24,754 bases of DNA, from positions 1-24,754 of the IMG/VR virus record IMGVR_UViG_3300024346_000481, one strand, 5' to 3'. The DNA comes from a virus. Numbering within the stretch: position 1 is the stretch's first letter; each line of letters begins with the position of its first letter. Shown here piece by piece: positions 18,772 to 24,183 of this stretch. The position numbers were made by a program, and so were the translations under genes. Below the pieces are notes generated by a model. The model was not told the origin of the DNA. It saw only the letters and a list, made by a program, of their open reading frames with translations, and did no database searches.

Positions 18772-19617
18772 ATGGGTAAGAGAAACAATGAGTTAAGAGT
18801 TGGCTCCAAACACAACTCATCCAGTTCGGAAGTCCAACCTGTGGACCAGACCTTTTCCTTCTCATCTCCAACCGAAATAGTGGACTTACCCTCTCAGGGA
18901 AGACACTACGGGGAGGAACACCCTCTTCATGGCGTGAACAGTATTGAAATAAGGTTTATGACAGCGAAGGACGAAGACATTTTGACCTCGAAAACCCTGC
19001 TAAACAAGGGCCTCGCGTTAGACAGGTTTTTGAGCAACGTTATCGTTGACAAGAACATCAACCTCGCTGACCTTCTCGTCGGTGATAAGAATGCCCTACT
19101 AATTGCCGCAAGGAAAACTGGATATGGCTCAGCTTATGACACTAAAGTTCGGTGCCCAAGTTGTGGCGAGACTAGCGAATATTCGTTTAATCTAGATTTT
19201 TGTGGGATAGACAGAGGCGCTGATTGTGAAGAGTTAGACGTTGTCCCTGCCGAAACTGGCTATTTTTACGTAAATCTTCCGATTAGTAAAGTTCGCGTAA
19301 AAATAAAATTAATGGATGGAAGAGATGAAGCAAGGTTAGTTCATCTTATGAAAATCTCAAAGAAAACAAAGAAAAACGAAGCATCTATTACCGATATGTT
19401 TAAGGTTATGATAATCGAAGTAAACGAAACCACAAAAAAGGTCGCAATAAACGACTTTGTTGAATCAATGCCAGCTATGGACTCTAGGTATCTTAGGAAA
19501 GTATATGAAAGGATAATGCCTAAAATTGATATGTCACACAACTTTGTTTGTGAAAACTGTGGCTCCGAGACGTATATGGAGGTTCCGCTTAATGCGGAAT
19601 TCTTTTGGCCTAGATGA
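18772..19617 (+). CDS. gp26: gp26-like baseplate protein with zinc ribbon
   Basis: A 281-residue protein of the T4 baseplate gp26 type. The family part starts around residue 34 (EIVDLPSQGRHYGEEHPLHG) and includes IEIRFMTAKDEDILTSKTLL, ALDRFLSNVIVDKNI and GDKNALLIAARKTGYGS. Two C-x-x-C pairs, RCPSCGE (Cys128, Cys131) and VCENCGS (Cys260, Cys263), bracket a 130-residue segment and should bind one zinc. T4 gp26 is a small component (208 residues) of the baseplate hub; this homologue is longer, in line with marine T4-like relatives. It is 20 bases after the tube gene with AGAGG as ribosome site. Its final codons contain the ribosome site and start of the next small gene. Confidence 0.82.
   Translation: MGKRNNELRVGSKHNSSSSEVQPVDQTFSFSSPTEIVDLPSQGRHYGEEHPLHGVNSIEIRFMTAKDEDILTSKTLLNKGLALDRFLSNVIVDKNINLADLLVGDKNALLIAARKTGYGSAYDTKVRCPSCGETSEYSFNLDFCGIDRGADCEELDVVPAETGYFYVNLPISKVRVKIKLMDGRDEARLVHLMKISKKTKKNEASITDMFKVMIIEVNETTKKVAINDFVESMPAMDSRYLRKVYERIMPKIDMSHNFVCENCGSETYMEVPLNAEFFWPR
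19578..19582 (+). promoter_or_regulatory. Ribosome site inside upstream gene that sets the 19592 start
   Basis: GGAGG within the 3' end of the gp26-like gene, 9 bases before the ATG at 19592. It supports that ATG as the true start of the small downstream gene rather than the ATG at 19526, which has no such site. Confidence 0.7.
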
Positions 19618-22325: not shown

Positions 22326-22345
22326 CACTGGGAGTGATTAGCGCG

Positions 22346-23821
22346 ATGTCTGAGACTAAAGAGGAAAGAGAGGCCAAGTGGAAGGCCATTCGGGAAAAAA
22401 GGGCCGCCGACGCAAAGGCCGCTCAGGAGAAAAGGGCCGAAGTCGCGGCTGCTCGGAAGAAAAAAAGGGCCGAAGACGCGGCCGCTCGGAAGGAAAAGAA
22501 TGCCAAGCGGCAGGCCGAGCGGAAGAAAAAAAGGGCCGAAAAGAGAAAGGAAAAAGAATGGGAGAAGTCCCTGAAAAAAGCCAAAGCCGAAGGCGGACGG
22601 TTAATAGCTAAGGAGAAACAAAAGGAAAAAAGGGCCGCTAAGGAGGAGAAGGCTTATAAGAAGCGTCAAGCATTAGGCAGGATAAGTCGCGGCATCGACG
22701 CCACCTGTAAAACTGAAGAAGGCTACAAAGGAATCTGCAGAGACGCTGGCGAAAAGCTGACCAATGGAACATATTTTCCGAACTATTGTAAGGGAGCAGG
22801 ACATGTTAAGTGTTTTGTACCCAACCGTATAATCGAAGAAGCAAAAGCACTTGAGAAAATTAAAGTCCTCAAAAATAACTTAGATAAGACAAACAAAAAA
22901 TTAAGAGGATTTGAGCAAACTAAACAATTTGACAAATTTATGGATAAACTGGATAGAAAAGATAGAGCTCCAACTCACAAGGGATATGTCCCTGCCCACG
23001 CTAGATTTTCAAATGAAGACCCTCATAAAGCAACTAACGGAAAAGATGTCACGCCTTCAATTGGCTATGTCACAGTTCAACATGTCCCCTCTGGAAGACT
23101 CGCCACGTTTCCAGCGTTCGTAAAAAGCTTTTCTGATACTTTTTCTCTCAACTGGAATGAAGAGCCGGTATACGGAAGAATGGACCCGTTGTATACCTAT
23201 TCGAACACTAAGAGAAACCTTAACCTGTCTTTTGTAATAGTCGCAGAAAGACATTATGAAGCCGCAAAAAACATGCAAAACCTAGACCAATTAATCCAAA
23301 ACCTCTATCCTGCATACGAATCTGGTGGAGGCACATCTGCGACACGGCTCGCCGCTGCCCCTTTGTTGAAAATCTCGTGGGGCAACCTAATTAATGGAGG
23401 AGGGGGCAGAGGGATGCTCGTTGCCTGCAATAATGTAGCGATCGTACACAATGTTGAGGCAGGCTTCTTCGAATACGGTGGCTCCAGCACCAGAAAACAG
23501 CACATAATCCCGAAAGAAATCGATGTTACTTTGTCCTGCAACGTATTGCATGATTTTAACTTAGGGTTTAAGACTAACGGTAAAGCACTTGAAAAGGGTG
23601 GGAAAAAATCAAATAGTTTTTATAATTTTCCATATGGGTTTGAAACTGCAAACATTTCTGGCGCGGACCTCAAGATACCACCTAACAAACGCCCACCCGA
23701 AGACACAGATGAAACGACAGAACTGGAGGAAAAAAGAAAAAACTTAAAAGACGAGATCGCCCAAATTAAAAAAATGCGGGCAGCGGAGCACTTGCGCCGC
23801 GCCTTGAAAATGGACTTCTAA
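22346..23821 (+). CDS. Baseplate or tail-tube initiator protein with Lys-rich and Cys-bearing N-terminus (491 aa)
   Basis: A 491-residue protein. The ATG at 22346 has GGAG at 22331-22334 and is preferred over an upstream GTG. Residues 7-106 are Lys/Arg/Ala/Glu-only coil built from imperfect KKRA repeats. Residues 116-160 form a small four-Cys module (Cys121, 131, 148, 156: GICRDAGEKLTNGT, NYCKGAGHVKCFV). After a charged helix (165-205), residues 238-405 are beta-rich with YVTVQHVPSGRLATFPAFVK, SFSDTFSLNWNEEPVYGRMD, PLYTYSNTKRNLNLSFVIVA and VEAGFFEYGG, a pattern I associate with baseplate or tube-initiator proteins of contractile tails (T4 gp48/gp54 position). The C-terminus is a charged helix. 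It lies between tape measure and gp53-like genes, which fits a baseplate place. The exact T4 counterpart is uncertain. Confidence 0.85.
   Translation: MSETKEEREAKWKAIREKRAADAKAAQEKRAEVAAARKKKRAEDAAARKEKNAKRQAERKKKRAEKRKEKEWEKSLKKAKAEGGRLIAKEKQKEKRAAKEEKAYKKRQALGRISRGIDATCKTEEGYKGICRDAGEKLTNGTYFPNYCKGAGHVKCFVPNRIIEEAKALEKIKVLKNNLDKTNKKLRGFEQTKQFDKFMDKLDRKDRAPTHKGYVPAHARFSNEDPHKATNGKDVTPSIGYVTVQHVPSGRLATFPAFVKSFSDTFSLNWNEEPVYGRMDPLYTYSNTKRNLNLSFVIVAERHYEAAKNMQNLDQLIQNLYPAYESGGGTSATRLAAAPLLKISWGNLINGGGGRGMLVACNNVAIVHNVEAGFFEYGGSSTRKQHIIPKEIDVTLSCNVLHDFNLGFKTNGKALEKGGKKSNSFYNFPYGFETANISGADLKIPPNKRPPEDTDETTELEEKRKNLKDEIAQIKKMRAAEHLRRALKMDF
22364..22663 (+). repeat. Imperfect coding repeat (KKRA-type) in baseplate gene
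   Basis: A stretch rich in AAAAAGGGCCG-like units, at least five copies, which encode Lys-Lys/Lys-Arg-Ala(-Glu). The units are imperfect and unevenly spaced, and the protein stays in frame. The region gives residues 7-106 a very high charge and helical coiled-coil character. A-runs of six or seven bases recur at the units. Confidence 0.7.
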
Positions 23822-23832
23822 AGGAGAACAAC

Positions 23833-24183
23833 ATGCCCAGAGATTATAACTTTTCTACAGATACGATGGACATCGATTTTTTAGAAGGCCCTCAGAAAAT
23901 ATATTATAATTATCTTCGTAGGAGAAACATCAAACGGTTGGAGTTCTATACAACACCGGCTCTTGAGTCTCTTACCAATGAAGAAAAAGCCCAGATTGAA
24001 GTAGAGGGCCACTATTGGGCTAGGGGTGACCGATATTATAAAATTGCGCTAGAGTATTATAGCGATGCCTCTTATTGGTGGGTTATCGCTTGGTTCAACC
24101 GAAGACCAACAGAGGGTCACATCAAAATAGGTGATTATATCGAAATACCTATAAATCTTCAAGATATCCTAGAATACACTTAA
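23833..24183 (+). CDS. gp53: Baseplate wedge protein (gp53-like, LysM-type fold)
   Basis: A 116-residue protein resembling the T4 baseplate wedge protein gp53, whose C-terminal part has a LysM-like fold. The key run is YWARGDRYYKIALEYYSDAS, then YWWVIAWFNRRPTEGHIKIG and DYIEIPINLQDIL: Y-G/D-D-x-S-Y-W-W-V-I-A-W, then a loop, I-x-x-G-D-x-I-x-I-P. T4 gp53 has 196 residues, so this one is essentially the core domain with a short N-terminus (MPRDYNFSTDTMDIDFLEGP). In T4 it joins neighbouring wedges to form the baseplate ring. It starts 11 bases after the previous stop with AAGGAG (23821-23826) as ribosome site. Confidence 0.85.
   Translation: MPRDYNFSTDTMDIDFLEGPQKIYYNYLRRRNIKRLEFYTTPALESLTNEEKAQIEVEGHYWARGDRYYKIALEYYSDASYWWVIAWFNRRPTEGHIKIGDYIEIPINLQDILEYT

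Follow-up and report, generated by a model that had tools for sequence, protein, structure and literature searches.

What would a small cluster of four cysteines be doing in the helical arm of a phage baseplate protein? The question is raised by a 24,754-base virus record, taken over its whole length and referred to below as the window. In this record, the first-pass annotation had pointed to a Cys-rich stretch between a Lys-rich coil and a beta-domain of a baseplate protein and had suggested that it could be a cell-surface or cell-wall binding element, or else a metal site.

Gene neighbourhood and identity of the protein

As read from its open reading frames (ORFs), the window appears to lead from terminase- and portal-like genes through those for sheath and tube up to the baseplate. 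For the 663-aa portal-like protein, IMG/VR contains no fewer than 598 related stretches, and the sheath protein has matches in 2,588 phage records, with Microcystis phage Mel-JY01 as the nearest isolate and Flavobacterium phage immuto just behind. The gene of interest is an ATG-started ORF of 491 aa on the plus strand (22346..23821), with a GTG at 22334 as a possible upstream start. It is preceded by the gene for an 810-aa protein in the tape-measure position, for which no family match was found in Pfam or PHROGs, and is directly followed by the gene for a wedge protein (23833..24183, plus strand), which matches PHROG 7145, a baseplate wedge subunit (E = 1.6e-7), and which we read as gp53/BW4-like. 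Upstream of the immuto homologue, beyond one small intervening gene, lies a gene annotated as coding for a tail tape measure protein. Elsewhere in the window, a T4_baseplate protein (18772-19617; PF12322, E = 1.4e-16), gp26-like, contains six cysteines and two CxxC pairs, which are picked up by zinc-ribbon Pfam models below their cut-offs.

The 491-aa protein has no meaningful match in Pfam, PHROG or NCBIfam. GH17, the sole hydrolase model listed for it, scored E = 0.14, far below the cut-off, and the Lys-rich coil matches TolA in NCBIfam by composition, at E = 0.0019 and 17.3 bits where the cut-off is 213. The ORF is directly supported, and the fold of its product is supported by prediction and fold match. 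In a full-length AlphaFold2 model, for which the alignment had 71 rows, the core at residues 241-400 is confident (pLDDT mostly > 90), and the predicted beta-domain begins near residues 239-241. The matches found by Foldseek come from contractile systems, namely their baseplate and tube proteins, with 39 at E <= 0.001 and a best E of 8.1e-7. VIA-align of the full-length model placed 29 of 993 chains at Z >= 8, a comparison that does not exclude families missing from its list. The putative tube domain, residues 239-403 (23060..23554, plus strand), was aligned with the PVC-type baseplate protein 6j0n_b at Z 11.5 (143 residues aligned, rmsd 3.0), and chains of Mu, P1, AFP, T4 (5iv5_BE, Z 8.4) and Milano (8fqc_U1, Z 8.2) followed at Z 8.2-10.8.

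Ahead of this domain, the model predicts a Lys/Arg/Glu-rich arm formed by one helix at residues 5-112 (22358..22681) and a second arm helix at residues 160-205 (22823..22960), and a C-terminal helix is predicted at residues 456-488 (23711..23809), all on the plus strand. By model and fold match, the protein outside the Cys-rich stretch consists of helical arm and tube domain, and no linked hydrolase domain was found in it. The DNA encoding the arm contains a 33-bp tandem repeat (22430-22540; 3.4 copies, 78% matches), seen as an 11-residue period in the Lys-rich arm, and the GC content of the part encoding residues 1-116 is 52.6%, compared with 33.5-44.1% in the four downstream gene parts measured.

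According to the available text of PMC10811340, the centrepiece of Milano is made up of a tube domain, a helical domain and a gp53/BW4 domain. Because of the tube-domain fold matches, the adjoining wedge gene and this make-up of the Milano centrepiece, the 491-aa protein is, as modelled, a tube-domain baseplate centrepiece and not a gp27/gp5-type hub. The earlier assignment to the baseplate, which the tube-domain match and the adjacent wedge gene support, therefore stands, whereas the comparison with T4 hub proteins has to be abandoned. Known centrepieces (Milano gp25, T4 5iv5_BE, PVC/AFP) share with the window's protein the tube-domain fold, the wedge-gene neighbour and a helical extension. 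In contrast to these, its extension precedes the tube domain, is Lys-rich and bears a four-Cys insert.

The four-cysteine stretch across the homologue family

The four-Cys mini-module (residues 116-160; 22691..22825, plus strand) interrupts the Lys-rich arm between the two predicted helices. By direct reading, its cysteines are at positions 121, 131, 148 and 156 (codons at 22706, 22736, 22787 and 22811), just as first annotated, with the spacing C-x9-C-x16-C-x7-C; the other cysteines of the protein, C361 and C398, are both within the beta-domain. The motif originally given for the stretch is correct except for one slip, in that its last part reads C-x-G-x(3)-V-K-C and not x(2), and the location between a Lys-rich helix and the beta-domain agrees with the AlphaFold2 model and the fold match.

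Homologues were collected through the neighbouring wedge gene (the best 80 of 93) and through the portal-type protein (the best 80 of at least 598), the latter followed by a homology search of 42 records, 21 of which matched at E <= 0.01. In addition, tblastn of the whole protein matched 6 phage records (best E = 0.02), and a search with a two-row alignment matched 44 loci; a peptide pattern for the whole protein retrieved no homologue from viral contigs or genome contigs. The resulting set comprises 135 distinct ORFs, taken stop to stop, at 125 loci; very near records are possibly absent from it, and two of its rows are the same Mel-JY01 protein, one of them a fragment.

Not one of the other 134 homologous ORFs has four cysteines ahead of the core; the maximum is three, in L099, where they fall within the eight residues preceding the core. 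A looser four-Cys expression also matches the homologue at L143, near and after the end of the core. The stretch is thus not a standard part of these proteins, as had been suspected. By the same count, the cysteines are not conserved in homologues, which had been named beforehand as telling against the module; the nearest relative, from IMG/VR (L162/L200), is 48% identical in the core. No Cys conservation in the homologues found means that there is no evolutionary sign of selection. This nearest relative aligns with the Lys-rich coil and again past the module, with gaps across nearly the whole module, which must therefore have been inserted or be a patch that has diverged strongly. The cysteines and this gap are directly supported. 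The relative (L162:1369-3591 and L200:3639-5861) starts with MALICNSYGC and has more than 300 N-terminal residues before the shared coil, and the only thing that Pfam lists for it is a coiled-coil (E = 0.11).

The N-terminal extensions in the family are hypervariable, with 0 to 1,957 residues ahead of the core (stop to stop), and at least 150 residues precede the core in six rows (the window's copy, L162, RM378, immuto and the two Mel-JY01 rows). A long N-terminal extension ahead of the homologous core is common to Rhodothermus phage RM378 (458 aa), Flavobacterium phage immuto (716 aa), Microcystis phage Mel-JY01 (2,255 aa) and L162/L200 (741 aa from the ATG); unlike the window's protein, however, none of the four carries a four-Cys module in the part preceding the core. 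By eye, their extensions are mutually unlike, with the exception of the coil common to the window and L162/L200.

Several members of the family have features of their own. The 2,255-aa protein of Mel-JY01 (L191:272-7036) contains, in its N-terminal extension, 13 DWDG motifs at an exact 44-residue spacing, and Pfam finds a WDGH domain (4.3e-16 over the whole protein). The C-terminal tail of the homologue at L143:2814-4874 includes a Hint/intein-like domain (Pfam Intein_splicing at 2.2e-6, which is below the curated cut-off, and PT-HINT at 0.0026), along with a Pro/Asp tail rich in cysteine. At L106, L179, L201, L206, L233 and L235, there are two tandem centrepiece paralogues, an arrangement that we take to be reminiscent of T4 gp48/gp54.

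Relatives, predicted fold and cysteine spacing of the module

The string YCxGxxxVKC of the module presumably resembles the Cys modules of secreted (M15/GH25-type) hydrolases. Searches with the module alone yielded no tblastn-confirmed locus in IMG/VR, two weak matches in phages (E = 0.9 and 4), the first of which contains a stop and lacks the module, one match in plasmids (E = 4), none at E <= 1 in 50 related phage records, and only noise among PDB sequences (E >= 0.32). The module has no match in Pfam or NCBIfam, where we know of no model for the hydrolase-type module; eukaryotic sequences lay outside the collections searched. A window-specific DNA pattern recurred at one other place, in a 103-aa frame overlapping two longer ORFs, and was discarded.

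Pattern searches gave a similar picture. YCPGxxx[VI][KQ]CC occurs at two places in IMG/VR, both times in the same 49-residue frame, and in L198 this frame overlaps a longer ORF that is read differently. The expression [FY]CxGxxx[VI][KQ]CC matched in 5 of 395 Bacteroidota genomes, compared with 2 in the reversed control; one of the five matches, checked in its context, is antisense to a longer ORF, and the other four are in frames of 24-150 residues. Queries with a consensus of the hydrolase module returned nothing convincing from phages, plasmids or PDB. A consensus composed by hand led to inovirus adsorption proteins in 27 records, at a best E of 0.2; these were rejected, the two that were read having a two-Cys loop only. 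The same hand-composed consensus also touches Pfam CLIP (E = 0.0052, below the cut-off), whereas the window's module does not.

Structure prediction gives a hint, but no proof, of a defined fold for the stretch. Residues 110-165, folded alone by single-sequence AlphaFold, form four strands with moderate confidence (mean pLDDT 69.7, pTM 0.49), and the five models of the isolated module differ, with mean pLDDT going from 69.7 down to 40.4. Nearly the whole module (residues 113-123 and 127-158) falls below pLDDT 50 in the full-length model. Foldseek with the module gave nothing below E = 4.8 (PDB) or 1.7 (viral models), which is noise level. In VIA-align, the low-confidence model of the isolated module reached Z >= 2 with only 2 of 34 chains, helianthamide (Z 3.0, rmsd 2.9, 43 aligned) and APETx1 (Z 2.6, rmsd 2.4, 38 aligned), a Z of 3 being in a range that is possibly meaningless.

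Helianthamide and APETx-like anemone peptides belong to the beta-defensin class, according to the available part of PMC6835510. For beta-defensins, the available text of PMC7304343 gives the consensus C-X5-7-(G/A)-X-C-X3-4-C-X9-13-C-X4-7-CC and the disulfide pairing CI-CV, CII-CIV, CIII-CVI. The four cysteines and Gly129 of the module fit this consensus with CIII and CVI, one bonded pair, missing: X7-G-X is followed by 16 residues from CII to CIV and 7 residues from CIV to CV. The likeness to the beta-/trans-defensin fold thus comprises the spacing of CI, CII, CIV and CV, the Gly before CII, the all-beta model and the weak fold matches. Unlike defensins, however, the module departs from the six-Cys framework, with four cysteines and other residues at CIII and CVI, is embedded in a virion protein and lacks an HMM match (Pfam Defensin_beta and Defensin_big, PF00711 and PF14862: 0 matches at E <= 10 in the window).

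Cysteine clustering by itself is unremarkable: shuffling the 491-aa protein gave at least four Cys in some 36-aa stretch in 322 of 20,000 cases, and shuffling 25 window proteins, hand-picked from the ORF list, did so in 897 of 2,000. Loose motif expressions, counted over all ORFs of at least 50 aa at 186 loci, are near the shuffle level and hardly commoner (6 against 3-8 in ten shuffles, 11 against 5-10, and 6 against 1-6). The Gly/Ala and Cys spacing expression C-x5-7-[GA]-x-C-x13-18-C-x4-7-C was matched by 5 of 200,000 shuffles of the 491-aa protein, by 5 of 3,000 shuffles of the 25 window proteins and, with the outer two Cys fixed and the inside shuffled, by 249 of 100,000, counts that refer to a single framework, picked after the sequence was seen and uncorrected for alternatives. 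Among 1,704 ORFs of at least 150 aa at related loci, four distinct sequences match this expression, compared with 0-1 in ten shuffles. The three apart from the module are two antisense frames in a 489-aa ORF and one match at the start of a 216-aa stop-to-stop frame, and therefore none of them is a second copy of the module. The full six-Cys beta-defensin framework had no match among the same 1,704 ORFs. Overall, the defensin likeness of the modelled module is suggestive, weak and post hoc.

Possible role of the module

Our main reading, to which we assign a probability of roughly 0.45, is that the module forms a two-disulfide beta knob, specific to this lineage, on the arm of the centrepiece, and that this knob would stabilise the baseplate or touch the cell envelope. 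In this lineage, the N-terminus would be a long Lys-rich helical arm, into which the four-Cys module of ~45 residues was inserted. Since the cytoplasm in which virion proteins are synthesised is reducing, disulfides would form after assembly or release. Outside the cytoplasm, the module would fold up as a small knob of beta strands, with C121-C156 and C131-C148 as the two predicted disulfides, the beta-defensin pairing minus the third bond. Present in about six copies, the knob could mediate contacts of the arm, by fastening it to adjacent baseplate proteins up to the moment of contraction or else by making contact with the cell envelope. What we infer here is that disulfides form, which cysteines they join, how many copies are present and what the knob does.

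The cysteines could instead form intermolecular disulfides that crosslink arms with each other or with baseplate neighbours, with no defined module fold, as in Milano, where the available text of PMC10811340 documents tail-wide disulfide crosslinks between tail components. What the two have in common is Cys in a contractile-tail baseplate protein; the bonds of Milano are demonstrated and tail-wide, whereas here they would be confined to one protein. Crosslinking would suit the low confidence of the Cys stretch in the full-length model and the six cysteines of the gp26-like neighbour, but it does not seem likely to us, given that the Gly and Cys spacing is rare in shuffles, that the isolated module is modelled as all-beta and that the 25 window proteins are Cys-poor (46 in 7,914 residues), which would be unexpected for a crosslinked tail. 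The improbability of the Cys spacing by chance also argues against the view that the module is drifting, non-essential filler without a specific function. This view is in line with the hypervariable N-terminal extensions (0 to 1,957 residues), with a module that all 134 of the other homologous ORFs lack and with the 33-bp repeats in the arm DNA, yet we consider it rather doubtful. We find it improbable that the knob is a trans-(beta-)defensin-like mini-domain, cut to two disulfides and set in the helical arm of the centrepiece as an envelope-reading knob of the tail. Trans-defensins are described in the available part of PMC7203481 as having arisen exclusively in animals. In a literature search, none of the matches listed described, going by title and abstract opening, a phage tail protein with a defensin-like module.

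The two roles proposed at the outset fare less well. A wall- or glycan-binding Cys module, borrowed as in secreted hydrolases for binding to the host surface, would fit a baseplate that faces the envelope and the presumed YCxGxxxVKC likeness. However, the module has no Pfam or NCBIfam match, hydrolase-type patterns led to no convincing place in IMG/VR or in the 395 Bacteroidota genomes, and queries with a consensus of the hydrolase module were equally unconvincing in phages, plasmids and PDB, so that we hold such borrowing to be very improbable; cell-wall binding by the module, proposed from the presumed resemblance, is unproven. Judged from the residues present, a metal site is unlikely as well. 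Four Cys and one His (H153) do fall within 36 residues, but the spacing C-x9-C-x16-C-x7-C includes no CxxC or CxxH pair, the ligand pairs of zinc ribbons or knuckles (CxxC or CxxC-x4-H) are not present in the module by direct reading, and no Pfam model recognises it, whereas zinc-ribbon models did detect, below cut-off, the CxxC pairs of the gp26-like neighbour. A disulfide-type module is likelier because there is no CxxC pair, and zinc or another metal is an explanation to which we give hardly any credence.

If the stretch is not a disulfide-held knob, the finding comes down to mere variability of the N-terminal arm. If the main reading is correct and the module is such a folded knob, the centrepiece, usually deemed a fixed structural part, can bear lineage-specific arm modules, and the arm would be a place to seek host-contact or trigger elements in uncultured RM378/immuto-like phages.
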